From Desulfonispora thiosulfatigenes DSM 11270 (lineage in GTDB: Bacteria; Bacillota; Peptococcia; Peptococcales; Desulfonisporaceae): DNA of 56,408 bases. The stretch's first letter is position 1, and each line of letters begins with the position of its first letter. The position numbers and the translations under genes were made by a program. Below the pieces are notes generated by a model. It was given only the letters and a program-made list of their open reading frames with translations. It did no database searches and had not been told where the DNA came from. Where the stretch lies: contig NZ_FWWT01000016.1 in the NCBI RefSeq assembly GCF_900176035.1, positions 1 through 56,408 on the forward strand. Direction: 5' to 3'. This document shows, piece after piece, positions 8,192 through 56,021 of this stretch.

Positions 8192-8497
8192 ATGAAAAAA
8201 GTAATCCTAAGCGGATATTATGGGTTTAACAATGCTGGAGATGAAGCCGTATTGTATTCCATAATTGCAGCTTTACGGGGTTTAGATGAAAATTTAGAAA
8301 TAACCGTTTTATCAAATAATCCAGAACATACCATTAAAGCCTATCAAGTTAAAGCAATTAATCGTTGGAAAGTAAAGGAAATATATCCGGCAATAAAGGA
8401 AGCAGACCTTGTAATTAGCGGAGGTGGCAGCCTTTTACAGGATGTGACCAGCAAAAAATGGTATTTTATATTATTTGGGCATAATAGGAATAGCTAA
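8192..8497 (+). pseudogene. csaB: csaB polysaccharide pyruvyl transferase, 5' part (frameshifted)
   Basis: The first 101 codons give the N-terminal Rossmann-like part of a CsaB pyruvyl transferase (GYYGFNNAGDEAVL, then ISGGGSLLQDVTSK). The frame is lost after TSKK. The remainder continues in another frame, overlapping at 8475-8497. Removing one A from the A6 run near 8453-8459 would join them as TSKNGILYYLGIIGIAK, which fits the family. The intact enzyme adds ketal pyruvate to secondary cell-wall polysaccharide, the anchor for SLH-domain S-layer proteins. This is either a real single-base mutation, a slippage-corrected gene or a sequencing error. Confidence 0.8.
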
Positions 8498-9308
8498 ATT
8501 TTTGCGCAAAAAAATATTAATTTATTCTCAAGGCATAGGACCGGTAACAGACAAAAGAAATCGCCTCTTAACAGGAATAATTTTAAATAAAGTAGCAGCG
8601 ATTACTGTTAGAGATACAGAATCAAAAAAAGACCTTGAGGACATGAAAATTAAACAGGAAATAATTCTAGCTGCAGACCCTGTTCTGGGAAATGAAGCCG
8701 AAGAAATAGATGAAAATATCGGACAGGAACTTTTAGAACTAGCAAACGTCGATATTAATAAGAAGCTTTTGGCTGTTTCCTTGAGAGAATGGCCAGTCGA
8801 AAGGGAAAATTACGAAGCTATCGCGCGTACTTGTGATCACTTTGCTGCCGAGGGCTGGGAAATAATATTCTTGCCAATGCACTTTCCAGACGACATCAGC
8901 GCAGGACGAGAAGTGCTAAAAGAAATGAAAGAAGAAGCCGTACTCTTAAAGCAAAATTATTCTCCTTATGAAACATTATGTATTTTAAAAAAATGCGACC
9001 TAATTGTCAGCATGAGATTACACGCTCTAATCATGGGAGCCGTAGTCCAAAAGCCCATAGTGGCCATATCCTACGACCCGAAAATAGATAGTTTCATGCA
9101 AAGTTTGGGATTTTATGATATATTACAGATAAATAACTTAAAAGAAAATAAATTAACAGGGCAAATACAAACCGCCTGGGATCAAAAAGATACCATTATC
9201 AGCGACTTAAAAGTCAAAAGCAGGGAACTAAAAATAAGGGCGCTGATTCCAGCCGAGAAGGCGCAAGAACTACTTAAAGACAATTTATTATCAAAAGCGA
9301 AGCAATAG
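8475..9308 (+). pseudogene. csaB: csaB polysaccharide pyruvyl transferase, 3' part (frameshifted)
   Basis: The open frame holds the rest of the pyruvyl transferase: LGIIGIAKFLRKKILIYSQG, VTDKRN, then ISMRLH-like VSMRLHALIMGA and PIVAISYDPKI, all typical of the C-terminal half. The TTG at 8475 has no ribosome binding site and is an artefact of the frame break, so this is not an independent gene. The last codons (KDNLLSKAKQ) overlap the left arm of the palindromic element at 9282, so that element reaches into the coding end. Confidence 0.8.
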
Positions 9309-11965: not shown

Positions 11966-12349
11966 GTGGAAGAACAAGAAATATCACTACGAGAACTAAT
12001 CGAGATCTTATTAAAAAACAAGAAGATGATTATGACAATTACCTTAGCAAGCGTTTTACTAACTGCCTTAGTTAGTCTTTTTGTTTTAAAGCCAAGCTAT
12101 GAAGCAGAGGCTAAATTAATTGTGGCAGACCTTAATGCTAATTCTATAAATGGAAATATTAGTGTTATGCTCTCTGATCCTAAAGGAGATATAATTGGAG
12201 AAGAGCAAATTAAAGGAATAATTGACTCTGTATCTAATCAATCACGTCTAAATTTACAAAGTTATATGGAACAAATAAAAAATCCAGAAATCTTAACTAG
12301 TGTAATCAAAGATCTATCCTTAAATGAAGATAAATATACTATCAATTAA
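11966..12349 (+). pseudogene. Wzz/chain-length determinant protein, 5' part (frameshift and deletion)
   Basis: GTG 11966, preceded by GGAGG, opens the N-terminal part of a Wzz/CapA-type polysaccharide copolymerase: EISLRELIEILLKNKK, a membrane helix (residues 20-41) and the YEAEAKLIV strand. The frame ends after NEDKYTIN. The rest resumes in another frame within VKDRDPKQAANIANSL. About 20 residues usually found between these motifs are missing, so a deletion of roughly 50-60 nt that is not a multiple of three is the likely cause. An intact protein would set chain length of the exported polysaccharide. Confidence 0.75.
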
Positions 12350-12872
12350 GGTTAAAGATAGGGACCCTAAACAAGCAGCTAACATAGCCAATTCCTTAGC
12401 CACTAAGTTTTCCGGCTTTATCTCAGAACTTGCAACCAAACAAACTAATCAATCTTTAACTTATATTCAAACTCAACTTGAAATAGAAGAGAAAAACTTA
12501 AAAGAAGTTTTGGCTCAATATCGAACAGAGTTGGCTAAAGCTGGAGTGGATGATCAAAATATTCAAAAGGCTGCAGCAGATAAACAAGTAGAGCTTGAAA
12601 TGATTGACCTAAAAGTAGAAAATGCACGTAACAAATTTAAAGCATTACTAGCAAAAAAAGAAGAAATTAAATTAGCCCAATCCTTTGATATAGGAGAAGC
12701 AGCTATCGTAGTATCTTCAAAAGCTTATGAAAGTAAAAGTCCTGTATCTCCAAATAAAACATTGAATGTAGCGATTGCCCTAGTATTGGGACTTATGATT
12801 GGTGTATTTGCTGCTTTTGCAAAATCATATTGGCAATCAACAAGCATGGAAGGCAAAGGGGCAAAAGTCTAA
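12324..12872 (+). pseudogene. Wzz/chain-length determinant protein, 3' part
   Basis: This frame carries the C-terminal half of the Wzz protein: DRDPKQAANIANSLATKF, the long periplasmic coiled coil (residues 40-110), the PVSPNKTLNVAIALVLGLMI motif and the second membrane helix. The ATG at 12324 lies inside the 5' fragment, lacks a clear ribosome binding site and follows the deletion point, so independent translation is doubtful. No BY-kinase (CpsD/EpsB) gene follows. The 3' end is 21 nt before the dehydratase gene. Confidence 0.75.
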
Positions 12873-17212: not shown

Positions 17213-17809
17213 ATGTTTAAATATTTTGCAAGACTCCATGAAAAATACCAAAGAAAAATATTACCGATTGTCATATACTCGCATGATAATAAAGAAAAGG
17301 AACCAGATAATTATAAGCTTGAGTTTTCTTTTTTAAAGGTATTAGAATTTAACTTTATGAGATTACAATTAAATAACGAACCATGGCGAAATTATATTAG
17401 AAGTAATAACCCTGTAGCAGCAGCTTTAATTAGTAAGATGAATTATTCTAAAGAAGAAAAAATATCTGTAAAGATAGAGTTTACAAGAATGCTGGCAAAT
17501 ATGCAATTAGATATAGCGAGAAGTACAATTTTAACCGCATTTTTTGAAAACTACGTTAAATTAACTACAGAAGAAGATCAATATAATAAAATGCTAATAG
17601 AAGAGTTAACTCCTCAGGAGGTGAGTAGTGTGATAGAAATAACTACATCTTACCATGAAAAAGGTCGTGAAGAGGGAATTAGAGAAGGTGAAAAAGAAGG
17701 AAGAAAAGAAGTAGCAAAAAATCTTATTTTACTAGGAATTGAGATAGATAAAATTATGGAAGCGACTAAATTATCTAGGGAAGAGATTAAAAAATTAATA
17801 AGTGAGTAA
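17213..17809 (+). pseudogene. Rpn/PD-(D/E)XK family protein, N-terminally truncated (198 codons)
   Basis: The frame begins with FKYFARLHEKYQRKILPIVI, which in Rpn proteins lies in the middle of the nuclease half, so the first part with the catalytic Asp is gone. It keeps the variable helical region (YSKEEKISVKIEFTRML) and the tail GREEGIREGEKEGRKE. ATG 17213 directly follows a TATAAT box, with no room for a ribosome binding site: the promoter seems fused to the truncated gene. A strong internal start exists at 17630. I infer that the nuclease is dead and only the short protein matters. Confidence 0.7.
17630..17809 (+). CDS. Possible intragenic short Rpn C-terminal protein (59 aa)
   Basis: GTG 17630 is in frame with the truncated Rpn gene and follows AGGAGGTGA (17616-17624), the full anti-16S complement, with 5 nt spacing. 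The product (VIEITTSYHEKGREEG... to LSREEIKKLISE) has the amphipathic repeat tail and an end helix pair like the liberated copies at 21419 and 21906. That the best ribosome binding site of the gene sits here supports internal initiation; an inhibitor function is inferred from RpnA of E. coli. Confidence 0.5.
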   Translation: MIEITTSYHEKGREEGIREGEKEGRKEVAKNLILLGIEIDKIMEATKLSREEIKKLISE

Positions 17810-19930: not shown

Positions 19931-20105
19931 GCAAAAATATTAATAATATAGGGTTAATCATAATTAATAATACAGGTTAGTAATATATAAAAATATAGGT
20001 TTAGTTATCATTAATAATATAAGGTTAATTATATAAATTAGTAATAAATTAGTAATAAATTTAAGTAATAAGGTTAATTATATAAATTAGTAATAAATTA
20101 GTAAT
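19931..20105. repeat. AT-rich slippage repeat tract
   Basis: The words TTAATAATATA and AGGTTAATTATATAAATTAGTAATAAATTAG recur; the latter type of unit is present twice in exact form (about 20026 and 20070). No gene is visible. It separates the phosphosugar mutase from the terminator at 20111. Confidence 0.65.
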
Positions 20106-20110
20106 ACAAG

Positions 20111-20264: not shown

Positions 20265-20323
20265 GCTATATATAAGGAAGAGTTTTTTCTGCTATTCAAT
20301 TAATATCAAAAAATTGCTATAAT
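20265..20323 (+). promoter_or_regulatory. Promoter region of the full-length rpn gene
   Basis: GCTATATATAAGGAAGA at 20265, then ATTCAATTAATATCAA and a perfect TATAAT at 20318-20323. The -35 (TTCAAT, 20295-20300) is weak. The same sequence, slightly decayed, precedes the two freed C-terminal genes (TTTAAT at 21331 and its counterpart near 21821) and, more distantly, the truncated gene at 17213. Confidence 0.6.
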
Positions 20324-20345
20324 AAGAGAAAGGGAATACTGGTAA

Positions 20346-21254
20346 ATGAAGAAAAATAAGAAATATGATTTAATGGATCCGAAAATTGATTTTGCATTCA
20401 AACAAATCTTTGCAGGGAAATTTAAAGAAAGTAAAATTGTCCTAATAGATTTACTAAATTCTATTTTAGGGTTCGAGGAAACGGTAAAAATTACCGACAT
20501 TCTATATTTAAACCCCTATACGGATAAGGAATATGAAGAATCCAAACAATCAATCCTGGATATTAAGGTCAAAACAAATAAAGAGGAATTAATCGATATT
20601 GAAATACAAATTAGAAATTCTGATAATTATCGCAAACGCTCCTTGTATTACTGGTCAACTATTTATGGGGAGCAAATAGTTGAAGGCGAAGCATATAATG
20701 AATTAAAAAGATGCATAGTAATAAATATCCTGAATTTTAATTTAATTACAGAAAATGAACACTATCATAGTATTTTTAATGTAAGAGAAAAAAACAAAAA
20801 CTTTGCCTTAAATCATGATTTAGAAATCCACTACCTGGAATTAAAGAAGTTTTTGAAAAGCACAGGCGAAGAAAAGTTTACAGGTTTAGAGCAGTGGTTA
20901 ATATTCCTTAAAGATTCAGGCAATGAAAATAAACGCGAAATAATAAATCAAATACGAAAAGAAAATGAGGTGATTGACATGGCAGGAGAAATCTTAGAAA
21001 AATTAAGTCAAGATGAAAAGGCTAGAGCAATCTACCAACAAAGACGCAAATGGTATTTGGATAAGGTATCAAGTGAGAAGTATTTTCTAAGTAAAGGCCG
21101 AGAAGAAGGAATTAAAGAAGGAATTAAAGAAGGAGAGCTAAAAGGCAAAAGGGATATAGCAAAAAAACTTATTTCCTTAGGAATTGAAATAGATAAAATC
21201 GAGGAAGCTACAAAGTTATCTAGGGCAGAGATTGAAGAGATAGCAAAGGAATAA
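20346..21254 (+). CDS. Rpn-family PD-(D/E)XK nuclease (full length, 302 aa)
   Basis: This is an intact member of the Rpn / 'PD-(D/E)XK nuclease family transposase' group. The opening DLMDPKIDFAFKQIFAGK, the catalytic core LDIKVKTNKEELIDIEIQ (Asp and the Glu-x-Gln pair) and YYWSTIYGEQIVEGEAY are typical; the C-terminal part has the GIKEGIKEGE tail. Rpn proteins of E. coli are DNA endonucleases that promote recombination, and RpnA restricts phages. AGAAAGGG at about 20328 supports ATG 20346. The C-terminal third carries an internal gene (20979), which is also present as two separate downstream copies. Confidence 0.88.
   Translation: MKKNKKYDLMDPKIDFAFKQIFAGKFKESKIVLIDLLNSILGFEETVKITDILYLNPYTDKEYEESKQSILDIKVKTNKEELIDIEIQIRNSDNYRKRSLYYWSTIYGEQIVEGEAYNELKRCIVINILNFNLITENEHYHSIFNVREKNKNFALNHDLEIHYLELKKFLKSTGEEKFTGLEQWLIFLKDSGNENKREIINQIRKENEVIDMAGEILEKLSQDEKARAIYQQRRKWYLDKVSSEKYFLSKGREEGIKEGIKEGELKGKRDIAKKLISLGIEIDKIEEATKLSRAEIEEIAKE
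20979..21254 (+). CDS. Intragenic short Rpn protein (91 aa), internal start
   Basis: ATG 20979 is in frame with the nuclease and is preceded by GAGGTGA (20967-20973) with 5 nt spacing, a better site than that of the nuclease itself. The product MAGEILEKLSQDEKARAIY... contains a helical segment (YQQRRKWYLDKVSSEKYF), the GIKE repeat and an end segment IDKIEEATKLSRAEIEEI. Two stand-alone copies of this segment downstream start at the same ATG and keep the same ribosome binding site, which is strong comparative support. By analogy with E. coli RpnA it should antagonise the nuclease; this is inferred. Confidence 0.65.
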   Translation: MAGEILEKLSQDEKARAIYQQRRKWYLDKVSSEKYFLSKGREEGIKEGIKEGELKGKRDIAKKLISLGIEIDKIEEATKLSRAEIEEIAKE

Positions 21255-21273
21255 AGTGAATTAAGGAAATCTT

Positions 21274-21304
21274 AGCTGTTCATTTTTGATGAGCAGCCTT
21301 TTTT
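21274..21304 (+). terminator. Terminator of the full-length rpn gene
   Basis: GCTGTTCAT and ATGAGCAGC pair (one G-U) around a T-rich loop and are followed by T6. Identical hairpins end the two downstream copies. Confidence 0.75.
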
Positions 21305-21418
21305 CTACTCGATTAATATTAAAAAATTGCTTTAATAAATGAACACTATCATAGTATTTTCAATATAAGAGAAAAAAACAAAATAAATCAAATACGAAAA
21401 GAAAATGAGGTGATTGAC

Positions 21419-21742
21419 ATGGCAGGAGAAATCTTAGAAAAATTAAGTCAAGATGAAAAGGCTAGAGCAATCTACCAACAAAGACGCAAATGGTATTTGG
21501 ATAAGGTCTCAAGTGAGAAGTATTTTCTAAGTAAAGGCCGAGAAGAAGGAATTAAAGAAGGAATTAAAGAAGGAATTAAAGAAGGAATCAAGGAAGGAAT
21601 TAAGGAAGGGATAAAAGAAGGAGAACTAAAAGGTAAAAGGGATATAGCAAAAAAACTTATTTCCTTAGGAATTGAAATAGATAAAATTGAGGAAGCTACA
21701 AAGTTATCTAGGGCAGAGATTGAAGAGATAGCAAATGAATAA
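21419..21742 (+). CDS. Stand-alone Rpn C-terminal protein, copy B (107 aa)
   Basis: From ATG 21419, preceded by GAGGTGA at 5 nt, the gene encodes a protein almost identical to the last 91 residues of the nuclease at 20346 but with six GIKE repeats where that protein has two. A GTG three codons upstream (21410) is open but overlaps the ribosome binding site, so I choose the ATG. It has its own promoter-like -10 (TTTAAT, 21331) and a hairpin terminator. No nuclease residues remain. Probable role: binding partner or inhibitor of the Rpn nuclease; could also be a decaying fragment. Confidence 0.7.
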   Translation: MAGEILEKLSQDEKARAIYQQRRKWYLDKVSSEKYFLSKGREEGIKEGIKEGIKEGIKEGIKEGIKEGELKGKRDIAKKLISLGIEIDKIEEATKLSRAEIEEIANE

Positions 21743-21761
21743 AGTGAATTAAGGAAATCTT

Positions 21762-21792
21762 AGCTGTTCATTTTTGATGAGCAGCCTTTTTT
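21762..21792 (+). terminator. Terminator of copy B
   Basis: Same GCTGTTCA/TGATGAGCAGC hairpin and T6 tail as at 21274-21304. Confidence 0.75.
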
Positions 21793-21905
21793 CTGCTCGA
21801 TTAATATTAAAAAATTGCTTTAATAAATGAACACTATCATAGTATTTTCAATATAAGAGAAAAAAAATAATAAATCAAATACGAAAAGAAAATGAGGTGA
21901 TTGAC

Positions 21906-22208
21906 ATGGCAGGTGAAATCTTAGAAAAATTAAGTCAAGATGAAAAAGCTAGAGCAATCTACCAGCAAAGACGTAAATGGTATTTGGATAAGGTATCAAG
22001 TGAGAAGTATTTTCTCAGTAAAGGCCGAGAAGAAGGAATTAAAGAAGGGATCAAAGAAGGAATCAAAGAAGGAGAGCTAAAAGTCAAAAGGGATATAGCA
22101 AAAAAACTAATTTTATTAGGAATAGAGATAGATAAAATTGAGGAAGCTACAAAGTTATCTAGGGCTGAGATTGAAGAACTGGCAAAGGAAGAGATGTCAA
22201 AGGAATAG
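21906..22208 (+). CDS. Stand-alone Rpn C-terminal protein, copy C (100 aa)
   Basis: ATG 21906 follows the conserved GAGGTGA at 5 nt. The protein matches copies A and B through YFLSKGREEG, has three GIKE repeats before GELK, and then drifts slightly (KVKRDIAKKLILLG) with a different end (ELAKEEMSKE). The open frame has been kept through the 12-bp repeat changes, because the repeat unit is a multiple of three. It ends before its own hairpin terminator. Confidence 0.68.
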   Translation: MAGEILEKLSQDEKARAIYQQRRKWYLDKVSSEKYFLSKGREEGIKEGIKEGIKEGELKVKRDIAKKLILLGIEIDKIEEATKLSRAEIEELAKEEMSKE

Positions 22209-22236
22209 AGTGAATAAAGTAAATTAAGGAAAGCAT

Positions 22237-22266
22237 AGCTGTTCATTTTTGATGAGCAGCTTTTTT
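22237..22266 (+). terminator. Terminator of copy C
   Basis: Third copy of the GCTGTTCATTTTTGATGAGCAGC-class hairpin, followed by T6. The bases right after (ATTCAATCAATATCAAAGAA) look like one more decayed copy of the rpn promoter. Confidence 0.7.
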
Positions 22267-23798: not shown

Positions 23799-25787
23799 AT
23801 GAAAAAACTATCAATTGATATCGAAACATTTAGTAGCATAGACCTCGCTAGATGTGGCGTTTATAAATATTGCGACTCAGCTGATTTTAAAATACTACTT
23901 TTTGCCTATGCCTTTAATGATGAAAAAGTAGAGGTCATAGACCTAGCCCAAAATGAAGAAATCCCAGAAAAAGTCGAGCAGGCCTTAACCGATCCTAATG
24001 TAATCAAAACAGCATTTAATGCAAACTTTGAACGAACTTGCTTAAAAAAATACTTTAATAAACCTATGCCACCTAGCCAGTGGAGGTGTACCGCTGTCTT
24101 AGCCTTAACGCTCGGTCTTCCAGGAAATCTTGCGGGAGTAACAAAGTGCCTAAAATTACCAGAGGAAAAAATGCAAGAAGGTAAAGATTTAATTAAATTT
24201 TTCTCTATTCCCATAAATAAAAATCAGAATATTCAGACAATGAAGGCGGCCCAAACAGCTCAATCACCCCAATCTGCCTCCTGCGCCCGAAATCTACCCC
24301 AGCATAATTTAAAAAAGTGGCAGACCTTTAAAGAATATTGTAAACAAGACGTCGTAGTGGAGCGCGAGATTAGAAAAAAACTAGAAGTCTTTCCTATCCC
24401 AGCGCCTGAGCAAAAACTCTGGGAGCTAGACCAAAAGATAAACGATAACGGGGTAAGAATAGACGGGCAATTAGTAGAAAATGCAATTGAATGCGCTGAA
24501 ATATATCACAAAAAAAGACTAGCTGAAGCCGCCTCCCTAACAGGACTAGCTAATCCTAATAGCCCTGCCCAGCTAAAGGACTGGCTCGCTGCGCAAGGTA
24601 TAGAAGTAATTAGCCTTGCAAAAGACAAAGTAAAAGAATTATTAGCCACAGAAACGGACCCTAAAATCATCAGAGTATTAGAACTTAGGCAGGAAATGTC
24701 AAAAACATCCGTTAAAAAATATGAAGCCATGGATAAAGTAGTATGCAGCGATGGGAAAATTAAAGGCATGCTGCAGTTTTATGGGGCAGCTACAGGCAGA
24801 TGGGCAGGTAGAGTTATAAATCCCCAAAACCTCCCAAGAAACGAGATAGAAAGCCTTGATCTAGCACGCCGTCTCATAAAGTCTAAAGATTATAAAGAAT
24901 TAGAATTAACCTTTGACTCTGTGCCAGATACCTTGTCCCAATTAATTAGAACAGCCTTTATCCCCTCACCTCATGCTAGATTTATCGTGTCAGACTTTTC
25001 TAGCATTGAAGCAAGGGTAATCGCTTGGCTAGCAGGGGAAAAGTGGAGAATAGATGTCTTTAACGACCATGGAAAAATATATGAAGCCTCAGCATCAGAG
25101 ATGTTTAACGTACCACTAGCAGAAATCACCAAAGATAGTGAGCTGCGCCAAAAAGGTAAAATCGCAGAACTAGCCCTAGGGTATCAAGGTAGCACAGGCG
25201 CACTTAAAGCCATGGGAGCATTAGGCATGGGACTAGCTGAAGAAGAATTAAAACCATTAGTAGATACCTGGAGAAGTTCAAATCCAAAAATAGTAAAGCT
25301 CTGGCGCGACGTGGAAAATGCAGCCATAAAAGCAGTAACAGAAAGAACAACTATTAAAATACAGTTTGGACTTAAATTTAGCTATCAAGGTGGAATTTTA
25401 TTTATCACCCTACCCTCAGGTAGAAGCCTTGCTTATCTTAGGCCAAGAGTAGAAATAAATAGAAAATTTAATACAGAAAAATTAACCTATGAAGGAGTAG
25501 TCCCAGGAAGTAGAAAATGGGGACGAGTAGACACCTATGGAGGTAAATTAGTGGAAAATATTATTCAAGGCCTTGCAAGAGACTGCCTAGCTATAGCCAT
25601 GTTAAGGCTTGATAAGGCAGGATATAAAATAAGCTTTCACGTCCATGATGAGGTTATCCTTGATGTTCCAAAGGGGACAGGCTCAAAAGAAGAAGTAGAA
25701 AAAATCATGGCAAAAAGTATTAGCTGGGCACCAGGTCTTCCTTTAAACGCTGAAAGCTTTGAAACAAATTATTATATGAAAGAATAG
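23799..25787 (+). CDS. Phage-type DNA polymerase, family A (662 aa)
   Basis: The protein has an N-terminal 3'-5' exonuclease domain (IDIETFSS with Asp7 and Glu9; FNANFERTCL; YCKQDVVVE) and a family A polymerase domain: motif A SDFSSIEARVIAWLAG (Asp399), the O-helix region KGKIAELALGYQGSTGALKA and motif C FHVHDEVILD (Asp617). It lacks the 5' nuclease of host Pol I, as phage and prophage enzymes do. Residues about 140-170 hold a low-complexity insert (AQTAQSPQSASCA). It is followed by a primase/helicase gene, so it belongs to a phage-derived replication module. Confidence 0.92.
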   Translation: MKKLSIDIETFSSIDLARCGVYKYCDSADFKILLFAYAFNDEKVEVIDLAQNEEIPEKVEQALTDPNVIKTAFNANFERTCLKKYFNKPMPPSQWRCTAVLALTLGLPGNLAGVTKCLKLPEEKMQEGKDLIKFFSIPINKNQNIQTMKAAQTAQSPQSASCARNLPQHNLKKWQTFKEYCKQDVVVEREIRKKLEVFPIPAPEQKLWELDQKINDNGVRIDGQLVENAIECAEIYHKKRLAEAASLTGLANPNSPAQLKDWLAAQGIEVISLAKDKVKELLATETDPKIIRVLELRQEMSKTSVKKYEAMDKVVCSDGKIKGMLQFYGAATGRWAGRVINPQNLPRNEIESLDLARRLIKSKDYKELELTFDSVPDTLSQLIRTAFIPSPHARFIVSDFSSIEARVIAWLAGEKWRIDVFNDHGKIYEASASEMFNVPLAEITKDSELRQKGKIAELALGYQGSTGALKAMGALGMGLAEEELKPLVDTWRSSNPKIVKLWRDVENAAIKAVTERTTIKIQFGLKFSYQGGILFITLPSGRSLAYLRPRVEINRKFNTEKLTYEGVVPGSRKWGRVDTYGGKLVENIIQGLARDCLAIAMLRLDKAGYKISFHVHDEVILDVPKGTGSKEEVEKIMAKSISWAPGLPLNAESFETNYYMKE

Positions 25788-25846
25788 CAAATTTCTAATT
25801 ATAAGATATTATTCCGCCCAAAAAAATAAATAAGGAGTAGATAAAA

Positions 25847-28249
25847 ATGATAGATCCTAAAAAAATATCTCAACAAGCACACTTAGAATTAAAACATGAC
25901 TTTTTATTAAATATTGCAACAGGTAGAAGCCGCAGAGAAACTAATTGGAAAAATATAAAAATTATGTGGTCAGAGTTAGTAAAAAGGTTAAGTAAAACAC
26001 ACAGAACCCATGAAACCGTTAGCGAATATCAAAACGCACTAAAAGCCAAAAGAGATGAAATAAAAGATGTCGGGGGATTTGTCGGAGGAGCTTTAAAAGA
26101 AGGCCGTAGAAAAGCAGAAAATATCATCGGAAGGCAAATAGTAACTCTTGATGCTGACTTTGTCTTAGGAGATTTATGGGCTAGATTTGAGGTAAAAATA
26201 GGCTGTAGCGGGGTAATGTACTCGACCCACTCCCATACCCCTACTAGTCCAAGGTTAAGGTTAGTAATCCCTCTAGTAAGGCCAGTAACACCTGATGAAT
26301 ATCAAGCAGTATCTAGAAAAATAGCAGAAGACCTAGGAATAGATTTTTTTGATGATACAACATACGAACCTCATAGATTAATGTACTGGCCCTCGACTTC
26401 TATTGATGGAGAATATATTTTTAATTTTTTAGATGAAAAATGGCTAGATCCAGATGAAGTACTAAATAGATATGATGATTGGACAGATTCATCTTTTTGG
26501 CCTGAATCATCACGCACTAATCTTGAGCGAAAAAGACAAATTGATAAACAGGAAAGTCCTCGTGAAAAAAAGGGAATAATCGGAGCATTTTGTAGGACTT
26601 ATAAAGTTACAGATGTAATAGATAAATATCTTAAAGAAATTTACACCCCTAGTATTGATCCAAATAGATATACCTATATACCTGGTAGTTCAGCTAATGG
26701 GCTTATTATCTATGGGGAGGGGGACTTTGCCTACTCACACCATGGCACAGACCCGATAAGTGGGAGACTGTGTAATGCCTTTGACCTTGTGAGGATTCAT
26801 AAATTTTCCTATTTAGATAAAAAAGCAAAAGAAGATACCCCTATGGCAAAGGTGCCTTCATATCTTGCTATGCAGCGATTTGCTTTAAAAGATATAGAAG
26901 TGAAAAAACGAATTGTTATGGAAAAAGGGGCAAGTAAAGAAAATTTAACTAATGAAAATTGGCAGGCAAATCTAGAGATTAATAAAAATGGTGAAATTAA
27001 AAATAGTTTAAAAAATTTAATAACCATTATTCAAAATGACCCTAAATTAAAAGGAATTGTCTTTAATGAATTAAGTGATGGTATGGAAATCAAAGGAAAA
27101 GTTCCTTGGAAACACCCTAGTAAATGGTGGAGGGACGCAGATGATGCTCAGCTCATTAGTTATATAGATATGAATTATGGATCATTTTCTATAAGAAATT
27201 TTGATATTGCCGTGACAAAGGTAGCAGATGATAGGTCATATCACCCTATTAGAGAATATTTAGAAGCCTTACCTGCATGGGATGGGGTAGAAAGATTAGA
27301 TCAAATATTAATTGATTATTTAGGTGCAGAAAATAATGATTATGTAAAAGCAGTAACTAGAAAGGTATTTGTTGCAGCAGTTGCAAGGGTATATAATCCA
27401 GGAATAAAATTTGACTGGATGCTCGTTTTAAGCGGTGAACAAGGAATAGGAAAAAGCACCTTAATCCAAAAGCTTGCAGGTGAGTGGTTTAATGACTCTC
27501 TAAGGCTATCTGATACCAAAGATAAAACAGCAGCTGAAAAACTTCAAGGATACTGGATTTTAGAAATAGGAGAGTTAGCTGGAATGAGAAAAGCTGAAGA
27601 AAATGAACTAAAAAACTTCCTCTCCTCACAAAATGATGTCTATAGGGCAAGCTTTGGTAAAAGAGCCACCCCTCATCCAAGGCAATGTATATTTATAGGG
27701 ACAACAAATGAAAAAGGATATCTAAGAGATGCTACTGGAAATAGGAGATTTTGGCCAGTAAAAGTATATCGGGGAAAAAAGAAACCTTGGAATATAACTA
27801 AAAATGAAATCGAACAAATCTGGGCCGAAGCTCTCCTAAAATATCAAGAAAGTGAAAAACTTCAGCTATCAGAAGAGCTAGAAATATATGCAAATCAAAT
27901 GCAAGATGAAGCCCTAGAAGTAGACGAAAGACAAGGAATTATTGAAAACTATATGGAAATGCTCCTTCCAGATAACTGGAAAGACATGGATTTATTTGCT
28001 AGAAGGGAGTATATAAATGAATACCATAATAAAAATAGTATCATTCCAAAAGGCACAAATAAGAGAAAAAAAATATCAGTAATCGAAATTTGGTGCGAAG
28101 CTTTTGGCAAAAATAAGGCAGATTTAAAGAGAGCAAAATCCTACGAAATAACTAAAATGTTACGAAGAATAGAAGGATGGGAGCAATCAGATAAATTAGC
28201 AAGCGGTGGAATTTATGGAAATAGAAGAATATGGAAGCGAAAATCATAA
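25847..28249 (+). CDS. Primase-polymerase / virulence-associated E (VapE) helicase protein (800 aa)
   Basis: The N-terminal part looks like an archaeo-eukaryotic primase domain: TLDADF (Asp102, Asp104), THSHTPTSPRLRLVIPL with the catalytic-type histidine, and EPHRLMYWPS. The C-terminal part is a VapE-type P-loop domain with Walker A SGEQGIGKSTL (about 528-538), WILEIGELAGM as Walker B region, and ATPHPRQCIFIGTTNE. Such proteins start and unwind replication in phages and phage-like islands. AAGGAG precedes ATG 25847. It stands 59 nt after the polymerase. No integrase, terminase or capsid gene is in the window. Confidence 0.88.
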   Translation: MIDPKKISQQAHLELKHDFLLNIATGRSRRETNWKNIKIMWSELVKRLSKTHRTHETVSEYQNALKAKRDEIKDVGGFVGGALKEGRRKAENIIGRQIVTLDADFVLGDLWARFEVKIGCSGVMYSTHSHTPTSPRLRLVIPLVRPVTPDEYQAVSRKIAEDLGIDFFDDTTYEPHRLMYWPSTSIDGEYIFNFLDEKWLDPDEVLNRYDDWTDSSFWPESSRTNLERKRQIDKQESPREKKGIIGAFCRTYKVTDVIDKYLKEIYTPSIDPNRYTYIPGSSANGLIIYGEGDFAYSHHGTDPISGRLCNAFDLVRIHKFSYLDKKAKEDTPMAKVPSYLAMQRFALKDIEVKKRIVMEKGASKENLTNENWQANLEINKNGEIKNSLKNLITIIQNDPKLKGIVFNELSDGMEIKGKVPWKHPSKWWRDADDAQLISYIDMNYGSFSIRNFDIAVTKVADDRSYHPIREYLEALPAWDGVERLDQILIDYLGAENNDYVKAVTRKVFVAAVARVYNPGIKFDWMLVLSGEQGIGKSTLIQKLAGEWFNDSLRLSDTKDKTAAEKLQGYWILEIGELAGMRKAEENELKNFLSSQNDVYRASFGKRATPHPRQCIFIGTTNEKGYLRDATGNRRFWPVKVYRGKKKPWNITKNEIEQIWAEALLKYQESEKLQLSEELEIYANQMQDEALEVDERQGIIENYMEMLLPDNWKDMDLFARREYINEYHNKNSIIPKGTNKRKKISVIEIWCEAFGKNKADLKRAKSYEITKMLRRIEGWEQSDKLASGGIYGNRRIWKRKS

Positions 28250-28790: not shown

Positions 28791-29816
28791 GTGAATTGCT
28801 TGGAAAACATTAATCAATTTGTTCTTTATACAGGTGATGATGGAAATGTAAAACTCCAGATATTTTTAGAAGAAGAAACACTATGGTTATCTCAAAAACT
28901 CATTGGCGAGTTGTTCCAGGTAGAATCTAACACCATCAATTATCATATTAAGGAAATCTATAAAAGTGGTGAATTGGAAGAGTTGGCAACTACTCGAAAA
29001 TTTCGAGTAGTTCAAAAAGAAGGCAACAGAGACGTTTCAAGAGATGTTGTTTTTTATAATTTAGATGTTATCATTGCTGTTGGATATAGAGTTAATTCAA
29101 AGCGAGCTACTCAGTTTAGAATATGGGCAACTAAAGTATTAAAAGAATATATGATTAAAGGATTTGTCTTGGATGATGAAAGATTGAAACAAGGCGAAAG
29201 AGTATTTAATAAAGATTATTTTAAAGAGCTTCTTGAAAGAGTTCGTTCGATACGTGCCAGCGAGAGAAGAATCTACCAACAGATTACAGATATCTTTGCT
29301 GAGTGTAGTATTGACTATGATCCTAACTCAGAAATGACAAAAGAATTCTATGCAACAGTTCAAAACAAATTTCATTATGCTATTACAGGAAAAACTGCTG
29401 CTGAGATAATACATTCAAAAGCAAACAAAGATGAGCCTAATATGGGGCTTTTAACATGGAAAAACGCACCTGATGGCAGAATTTTAGCATCAGATGTAAA
29501 AATAGCTAAAAATTATCTTTCTGAGAAAGAAATTAAAAGATTGGAAAGAACCATCTCATCTTTCTTTGACTATATAGAAAACATCATTGAGAATAGAGAG
29601 ACTTTTACCATGGAAGCTTTTGCTAACAGTGTAGTGCGCTTCTTAGAATTCAATGAATATAAGATTCTCACAGGAAAAGGAAAGATTTCAAAAGCACAAG
29701 CTGATCAGAAAGCATTGAATGAATACAAAGAGTATAACAAGCATCAGCCAATACATTCAGATTTTGATAAGCAGATAAAAAAATATTTGGAAAGCGGTAG
29801 TTATAAAAAAGAATAA
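28791..29816 (+). CDS. rhuM: RhuM family protein
   Basis: The 341-residue protein matches the RhuM ('virulence protein') family: LFLEEETLWLSQKLIGELF-like opening, TTRKFRVVQKEG, VIIAVGYRVNSKRATQFRIW and a C-terminal part ending in a helical region. Homologues occur on islands in many bacteria; their biochemical role is unknown, though the N-terminal half looks DNA-binding. The start is GTG 28791 or, with better spacing from AGAGGGTGA, TTG 28800. TTRKFRV is encoded by a perfect palindrome. Confidence 0.85.
   Translation: MNCLENINQFVLYTGDDGNVKLQIFLEEETLWLSQKLIGELFQVESNTINYHIKEIYKSGELEELATTRKFRVVQKEGNRDVSRDVVFYNLDVIIAVGYRVNSKRATQFRIWATKVLKEYMIKGFVLDDERLKQGERVFNKDYFKELLERVRSIRASERRIYQQITDIFAECSIDYDPNSEMTKEFYATVQNKFHYAITGKTAAEIIHSKANKDEPNMGLLTWKNAPDGRILASDVKIAKNYLSEKEIKRLERTISSFFDYIENIIENRETFTMEAFANSVVRFLEFNEYKILTGKGKISKAQADQKALNEYKEYNKHQPIHSDFDKQIKKYLESGSYKKE
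28987..29013. promoter_or_regulatory. Perfect palindrome within rhuM
   Basis: AACTACTCGAAA, a central A and TTTCGAGTAGTT form a perfect 12-bp-arm inverted repeat that encodes the TTRKFRVV segment. A diverged copy lies upstream of the gene at 28699. Confidence 0.6.
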
Positions 29817-29900
29817 GTGGGATATTTAATAGTATTCGAATTCGAACAAATTAAAAAATGAACTATCAAGGAATCCTTGACAGTTGGAAAGGAGAAGTTT

Positions 29901-30254
29901 ATGTACAGTGATACAAGTAAATTATTAGTATGGCAAAGATCACATGAGCTGGTCTTGAATATATATGAAGTCACTAAAGACTTTCCAAAAGACGAGCAGT
30001 TCGGCTTGACTTCACAAATAAGAAGAGCTGCTGTTTCGGTTCCTAGTAATATTGTAGAGGGAAAAGCAAGGGGATCTAGCAAAGAATATAAACGATTTTT
30101 GCTAATGGCACGTGGTTCTTTGGAAGAAACAAAGTATCAGCTGCTATTAGCAAAAGATTTGAAATATATAGATGAAAAGAAATATAAGGAAGTATTGAAC
30201 TTAGCAATGGAAACAGGAAGACTTTTGGCTGGATTGATTAAGTCTTTGGGTTGA
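29901..30254 (+). CDS. Four helix bundle protein (23S rRNA intervening-sequence family)
   Basis: The 117-residue protein begins MYSDTSKLLVWQRSHELVL and has QIRRAAVSVPSNIVEGKARG and FLLMARGSLEETKYQL, the signature of the four helix bundle proteins also found inside 23S rRNA intervening sequences and diversity-generating retroelements. AAAGGAG lies 7 nt before ATG 29901; the upstream TTG at 29877 is less likely. No rRNA or retroelement is nearby, so it is a solitary copy of unknown role. Confidence 0.88.
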   Translation: MYSDTSKLLVWQRSHELVLNIYEVTKDFPKDEQFGLTSQIRRAAVSVPSNIVEGKARGSSKEYKRFLLMARGSLEETKYQLLLAKDLKYIDEKKYKEVLNLAMETGRLLAGLIKSLG

Positions 30255-55007: not shown

Positions 55008-56021
55008 ATGAAAAATAGTAATAAAATAAATAAAGCTTTATTAGCAAGCACTTATGAAATTGAAATGGATTTAATTAAAGATTGGGATGGTCATCTGAAT
55101 GATAGAATGCTAAAAATGGGTTATAAGCCTAAAGAGGGAGGATATAATTCACTTGATTATCATAAGGCTATGAAGAAATTAATTTCAGTCCATCCAAGAA
55201 AAGTGCATTACTCTAAAGAGTTTTCATGTCCTGATGAATGCAAAAGTGCTCTGAATAAATTAATTGCAGATATTGAAAATGGGAAGAACTTATTACCATA
55301 CATGAGCAAACAAGTAATTAAACCCACGAAAAATGATGGACTGCTAAATGACTGGAATATTCACCACTTTCATTTAAATGAAGAATATGAGAAGGATACT
55401 ATATTTATTAAAAGAAGTGATTGGTTGTTATTGGCCTTTGTTAATGAAGAAGGCATTTATTGTCTTGATGTCTATCCGCATAAAAAACCCTATTTGTGGT
55501 CTCATATTAAGATGATAGAGATTATCCATAATAATTGGCCAGAGCTTATAGAGAAGAATAAATTAAAAGGTGTAGTTGGTTTAACTGAGAAAATTGATGA
55601 TAAAAGTTACTCGGTGCTAAGAAAAACTAATTCAACCACTCTCGTAGAAATAGGTGAAAATAAGGTTTATGGCTTAATAGGTGGTGGTTATGCAAGCGAT
55701 GGAAGTTCAATAGAAGCTGTTAGGACGTCGGATTATTGGTATAATTATATAAGAAAAATTGAACTTTATATTTTAGATGAATACCAAAACTTTAAAAGAC
55801 AGATGTTACCATTTGATTCGTGTAGCATGGATAAAAAGTTAGAAATAAAATTGCTGACACTAACTGAAGAAGAATTGATTCTTTTAGAAAAACGACGCAA
55901 TGTTATTATCAAGGTAAACTATAACAGTGGAAACATTAGGATGTGTAAGCTGAGTAGTTTATTAGATGAGTTTTTATATGATTCTTGGGAAAATAGGTTT
56001 ACATACAAGTTGATATTATAA
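55008..56021 (+). CDS. Uncharacterised protein with HHFHL motif (337 aa)
   Basis: The ATG at 55008 lies 6 nt after the epimerase relic, so its ribosome binding site (GGGGTGA) may come from that relic's end. Residues 115-180 hold WNIHHFHL, RSDWLLLAF, LDVYPHK and MIEIIHNNWPE, histidine-rich segments that suggest a metal- or nucleic-acid-related active site. I have seen similar segments in unannotated island proteins but know no family name. The C-terminal part (TEEELILLEKRRNVIIKV) is charged. Position suggests a defence or toxin gene. Confidence 0.55.
   Translation: MKNSNKINKALLASTYEIEMDLIKDWDGHLNDRMLKMGYKPKEGGYNSLDYHKAMKKLISVHPRKVHYSKEFSCPDECKSALNKLIADIENGKNLLPYMSKQVIKPTKNDGLLNDWNIHHFHLNEEYEKDTIFIKRSDWLLLAFVNEEGIYCLDVYPHKKPYLWSHIKMIEIIHNNWPELIEKNKLKGVVGLTEKIDDKSYSVLRKTNSTTLVEIGENKVYGLIGGGYASDGSSIEAVRTSDYWYNYIRKIELYILDEYQNFKRQMLPFDSCSMDKKLEIKLLTLTEEELILLEKRRNVIIKVNYNSGNIRMCKLSSLLDEFLYDSWENRFTYKLIL

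Follow-up and report, generated by a model that had tools for sequence, protein, structure and literature searches.

The rpn locus of Desulfonispora thiosulfatigenes DSM 11270 raises the question of why a full-length gene of the Rpn family should be followed directly by two short genes that contain only its C-terminal part, and of what the products of these short genes would do. The locus lies in a stretch of 56,408 nucleotides of contig NZ_FWWT01000016.1, to which we refer as the window. In Rpn systems, the short protein RpnS blocks the full-length protein RpnL via complex formation, and four-residue repeats sit in the first helix, through which dimerisation occurs (PMC10327210). Zhong et al. 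(2023, PMC10327210) have already described stand-alone RpnS genes in E. coli, 3′ of rpnE (YpaA) and of rpnC, as well as tandem rpn arrays in other genomes. Freed rpnS genes are a kind already known, and the array described here adds a different bacterium and a different subfamily.

The upstream gene of the array, rpnL, apparently encodes an intact predicted nuclease. A family profile search matched 20346-21254 to PF12784 (E=1.1e-62; 212 bits against a curated cut-off of 27.4) and to TIGR01784 (E=4.4e-55; 187 bits against a curated cut-off of 52.1). The PD-(D/E)XK residues D72, E86 and Q88 are unchanged across 21 homologs and are likely to form the active site, a catalytic role that we assign from family membership. 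In the AlphaFold2 model of RpnL (pLDDT 82.5), the nuclease domain is predicted with confidence and the C-terminus after it is helical. When the full-length model was compared by fold with the PDB, nothing matched at E<=0.001, and the hits to McrC, EndoMS and EcoO109I were weak.

Is the C-terminal part also translated on its own? The first-pass annotation of this DNA had pointed to an in-frame internal ATG at 20979 behind the motif GAGGTGA; both are present in the sequence, and the Shine-Dalgarno motif is conserved across homologs. We aligned 41 homologs and inspected the DNA 5′ of the position equivalent to M212, where 12 of them have a start codon (9 ATG, 3 GTG). A strong Shine-Dalgarno sequence precedes the codon in all 12 (-8.1 to -12.4 kcal/mol) and is mostly missing from the 29 homologs without an internal start codon (median about -2.4), a difference in strength (Mann-Whitney P=1.8e-6) that is only indicative because the homologs are not independent. 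In the homologs with ATG, the Shine-Dalgarno sequence is also stronger than under recoding with their own codon usage (single P values 0.004-0.18, combined 9e-6, and indicative for the same reason). We propose that RpnS would be translated from this ATG within rpnL, as one element of an explanation that, taken whole, we consider about equally likely to be right or wrong.

The two short genes downstream reuse the parent's ATG and ribosome binding site, each preceded by a scar of the nuclease ORF of roughly 40 nt, as had been noted on first reading; the hairpin terminator also noted then is found 3′ of all three frames (Table 1). Both are separate genes 3′ of rpn that begin at the internal start and derive from their own parent, and outside the repeats the parent and copies share 96-99% protein identity. 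The view that an intragenic RpnS in the C-terminal part turned into separate genes agrees with the conserved internal Shine-Dalgarno sequence and with the purifying selection described below. A promoter-like -10 element had also been ascribed to each copy, but the TTTAAT in question is a weakened version of the parent's TATAAT, and promoter-like sites in the region number 11 against 8.7 +/- 3.1 in shuffled sequences, which is no excess.

Table 1. Features of the rpn array, in window positions
Feature	Position	Strand	Details
rpnL, full-length Rpn nuclease (predicted)	20346..21254	+	302 aa; PF12784, TIGR01784; conserved D72, E86, Q88
Shine-Dalgarno GAGGTGA of the internal start	20967..20973	+	duplex -9.9 kcal/mol; conserved along with the start codon
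Intragenic rpnS (putative)	20979..21254	+	91 aa; 2 IKEG repeats at 21111-21134; in-frame ATG, conserved start
Intrinsic terminator 3′ of rpnL	21275..21297	+	z -3.8
Copied rpnL upstream box (= 20286-20325)	21299..21338	+	-10-like TTTAAT; 85% identity to parent box; 39/40 to copy 2 box
Nuclease-ORF scar between two deletions, 5′ of stand-alone rpnS 1	21338..21379	+	96% identity to 20753-20799
Shine-Dalgarno of stand-alone rpnS 1	21407..21413	+	same as the parent's
Stand-alone rpnS 1 (copy 1)	21419..21742	+	107 aa; 6 IKEG repeats at 21551-21622; open frame
Intrinsic terminator 3′ of stand-alone rpnS 1	21763..21785	+	z -3.2
Second upstream box and scar	21787..21866	+	near identical to 21299-21379
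Shine-Dalgarno of stand-alone rpnS 2	21894..21900	+	same as the parent's
Stand-alone rpnS 2 (copy 2)	21906..22208	+	100 aa; 3 IKEG repeats at 22038-22073; five-residue C-terminal extension; open frame
Intrinsic terminator 3′ of stand-alone rpnS 2	22237..22261	+	z -4.9

The predicted fold of copy 1 also resembles that of an RpnS. Stand-alone rpnS 1 is predicted to form a long helix (residues 2-82) followed by helices at 87-94 and 98-106 (mean pLDDT 73.5), in agreement with the three-helix RpnA-S of PMC10327210, and the four-residue IKEG repeats fall in the first long helix of this predicted helical C-terminal domain. Compared with the RpnA-S structure 7TH0, the family profile matches at the expected place, weakly (E=0.084); the RpnS proteins of the array have 91-107 aa, whereas the E. 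coli RpnA-S construct has 49 aa.

Short frames of this kind could be by-products in decay: pieces of the 3′ end that remained after tandem duplication and deletion, in a family that turns over fast, and that are intact only because they are young. The genome does hold several N-truncated rpn fragments (in the window at 123-698 and 17213-17809), the array was not found in other sampled genomes, and a repeat with a length of 12 nt cannot break the frame. The first-pass annotation had stated that the frame of the copies stayed intact, and a comparison of synonymous and non-synonymous changes bears this out. In the 83 codons that can be aligned, copy 1 departs from the parent at 4 synonymous and 1 non-synonymous nucleotides (dN/dS 0.06; P=0.011 in a neutral simulation), and copy 2 does so at 11 and 5 (dN/dS 0.09; P=1e-4); across the array the values are 0.06, 0.09 and 0.12. 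Changes specific to copy 2 are synonymous at 10 nucleotides and non-synonymous at 5 (P=1.5e-4 under neutrality), a signal that weakens to P=0.048 if half of the synonymous changes belong to the parent lineage. Within copy 1, comparison of the six IKEG repeats with a uniform unit gives 5 synonymous and 0 non-synonymous differences (P=3e-4). Because synonymous changes dominate, the stand-alone frames look maintained as proteins under purifying selection. This argues against by-products, as do the intact start, ribosome binding site and terminators of both copies and the recurrence of the pattern in E. coli, where YpaA is detectably made (PMC10327210), and in other Bacillota; we regard decay as unlikely.

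If the short products are maintained, the next question is what they might bind. The main difference among the three C-termini, which the first-pass annotation missed, is the number of IKEG repeats: 2 in the parent, 6 in copy 1 and 3 in copy 2. In E. coli, addition of one repeat to RpnC-S led to loss of its inhibition of RpnC, and inhibition was regained when the repeats were matched (PMC10327210). Because a single extra repeat had this effect, we predict that the copies with 6 and 3 repeats inhibit their 2-repeat neighbour poorly, following a rule whose source is one E. coli protein, RpnC. The copies probably do not block the neighbouring nuclease, and they may block other Rpn versions. Independent turnover of the repeats alone would also give a mismatch between parent and copies. 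A comparable dependence is cited in PMC10327210 for EcoR124I and EcoR124II HsdS, in which the number of four-residue repeats shifts specificity; in HsdS the repeats change the spacing of the DNA target, whereas in rpnS they would change protein-protein pairing.

This mismatch bears directly on the earlier suggestion that the copies raise the dose of cognate antitoxin, supplying more inhibitor for the neighbouring RpnL. Such a role would suit genes that share the parent's start and ribosome binding site, are nearly identical to it outside the repeats and lie just 3′ of rpnL. However, it is hard to reconcile with 6 and 3 repeats against 2 when a one-repeat difference ended inhibition in E. coli RpnC (PMC10327210), and a high dose is disfavoured by the weakness of the promoters and by the terminators that separate the units, so that we think a dose effect quite improbable. 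The other earlier suggestion, decoys with altered specificity, we judge to be closer than the dose reading, given the repeat mismatch.

How the array arose can be approached segment by segment. The copies had been described as sharing two deletions. Deletion 1 (parent about 20326-20754) is indeed exactly common to both, but the junctions of deletion 2 differ: copy 1 has lost 20800-20943 (144 nt), which leaves the scar in frame, whereas copy 2 has lost 20795-20939 (145 nt), which leaves it out of frame. Copy 1 agrees with copy 2 at 76/77 nt of the box and scar. Its coding part has 4 substitutions relative to the parent and 15 relative to copy 2 (233 nt compared), and its terminator matches the parent's at 42/42 positions with 3 mismatches to copy 2. 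The array is a mosaic, since the coding part and terminator of copy 1 go with the parent and its box and scar with copy 2; on this ground we reject the history first put forward, in which a C-terminal-only gene arose once and was then simply duplicated. In the simplest history, copy 2 would be older, and a tandem duplication that bracketed the parent's C-terminus, the terminator, the box and the scar would then have made copy 1; the coding part of the freed C-termini would therefore have arisen twice. The long repeat tract is probably ancestral, with the parent having shrunk from at least 6 repeats to 2, because the copy 1 repeats are too diverged for their differences to have accumulated after copy 1 recently separated from the parent (Poisson P about 4e-4 to 8e-3, with expected counts of 0.6-1.2 that are our own estimates).

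The mosaic structure of copy 1, with the coding part of the parent and the upstream part of copy 2, also points to past exchange inside the array, as would be expected if the short genes were cassettes, reserve C-termini whose recombination with the full gene switches the register (the repeat number) of RpnL and intragenic RpnS together. A likely case of such recombination is seen in E. coli: the four sampled strains without ypaA (L119-L122) have a full-length RpnE with the ypaA tail (AANNH), as expected from a fusion, and fusion is also described in PMC10327210. Yet a silent cassette needs no protein-level selection and no conserved ribosome binding site or start, and fusion removes the copy instead of keeping it. 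Although selection during residence in the full gene could account for part of the protein-level selection, we hold it improbable that the short genes serve as cassettes, to the same degree as for the dose effect.

Stand-alone rpnS genes with a shared internal start recur elsewhere. Across 23 E. coli genomes in which we inspected the rpnE-ypaA locus, the internal start and its Shine-Dalgarno sequence (AAAAGGAGAGATTR-ATG) are common to rpnE and ypaA in every pair that was resolved. RefSeq marks ypaA (L116:4817-5002 and relatives) as a pseudogene 'missing N-terminus'; the start of ypaA is that of RpnS and has a strong Shine-Dalgarno sequence in front of it. Repeat number is unequal between rpnE and ypaA in 12/12 distinct protein pairs, which is not significant because random pairing of lengths would by our arithmetic give only about 0.8 matches; active avoidance of a matching repeat number in E. 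coli is unproven. Like the array, E. coli RpnE/YpaA and RpnC with its second RpnC-S have a stand-alone rpnS directly 3′ of rpn with the same start and Shine-Dalgarno sequence, originated by duplication of the parent and have not kept the parent's repeat number. Unlike these cases, the array has two tandem stand-alone copies, both of which carry a terminator and a duplicate of the upstream box, and it belongs to another Rpn subfamily (PF12784/TIGR01784), with a longer RpnS, in another bacterium.

Among 398 Bacillota genomes, 86 contain matches to the C-terminus, and by our count more than 30 have such a match in short stand-alone frames, some of them at contig ends. At three Bacillota loci (L163, L165 and L167), a parent and a stand-alone gene have a common internal start and Shine-Dalgarno sequence, and their RpnS lengths differ by multiples of four residues (24 at L163, 20 at L165 and -8/+12 at L167); in the Bacillota pairs that could be compared, the repeat number of the stand-alone gene differs from that of its neighbour. 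Direct duplication of rpn parts is common to the array, to these three loci and to the published tandem rpn arrays (PMC10327210), and the three loci also resemble the array in having C-terminal genes beside a full rpn and differences in repeats. They differ from it in copy number and place, with one stand-alone copy each at L163 and L165 and two, one on each side, at L167, and they belong to other sequence families. The three-frame array was found in none of the other sampled genomes; the relatives returned included none of the same genus or family, the nearest being of the same order. One scan of viral contigs gave no relatives. Elsewhere in the genome, the matches to the intergenic DNA of the unit were confined to pieces resembling the terminator, located 3′ of other rpn C-termini, and no further units were found.

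We propose that the locus is an Rpn toxin-antitoxin gene-within-a-gene, in which RpnL would be a PD-(D/E)XK nuclease and RpnS would be the product translated from ATG 20979. The two stand-alone rpnS genes would have arisen when the 3′ part of rpn was duplicated in tandem, together with its ribosome site, its terminator and a piece of the upstream box. Each stand-alone product is expected to consist of one long IKEG-bearing helix and a small two-helix end, and to dimerise through the long helix. We infer both an antitoxin activity of the RpnS type and a choice of partner for these products. Since partner choice in E. coli RpnC depends on the number of repeats, it is most likely that the copies with 6 and 3 repeats bind inefficiently to the neighbour with 2. 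They would instead neutralise an RpnL of another register, either former versions of the gene or alleles that arrive by transfer. That the stand-alone copies are RpnS proteins of another register is the best-supported reading of the array, and we put its chances at about half.

The surroundings of the array hold further features. About 3 kb 5′ of it, 17213-17809 encodes a 198-aa N-truncated Rpn relative whose C-terminus has 53% identity to that of the array. The N-truncated Rpn at 123-698 belongs to a different subfamily and contains an internal Met and repeats of its own (GDVTMGILEQIEERGIKKG); a full gene almost identical to it is found at G000:C15:98840-99655. Between a phosphomannomutase-like gene and rpn, AT-rich direct repeats occupy 19941-20106 (TTAATAATATAGG-like, with a 39-nt unit present twice at 49 nt). 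Adjoining the array, 23799-28249 encodes a phage-type DNA polymerase A and a VapE-like helicase/primase and is a prophage remnant or phage satellite. It is followed by a RhuM-family gene at 28791-30254 (PADLOC PDC-S05, E=2e-152) and then by a 23S rRNA intervening-sequence or bAvd-like four-helix protein, and a relative of the anti-phage protein PD-T4-7 lies at 55008-56021 (E=4e-48). Polysaccharide pyruvyl transferase-like and chain-length-determinant-like genes at 8192-9308 and 11966-12872 each appear as two overlapping frames, which are frameshifts or sequencing errors.

Stand-alone rpnS genes are mostly unannotated or, like E. coli ypaA, labelled as pseudogenes, and the array provides a case from another bacterium and another subfamily in which there is evidence for selection on the protein. 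Tentatively, such genes might serve as a stock of antitoxins that differ in register, which would protect the cell against Rpn proteins of other registers (former selves and incoming alleles) and donate register switches to the resident nuclease; the 6-repeat copy would then retain the parent's earlier register, from before its reduction to 2 repeats. We see this as a possibility that falls well short of even chances. Given the pattern of mismatch and the published pairing rule, the role of the extra RpnS proteins can be tested directly by combining a few nucleases with a few antitoxins in all pairs.
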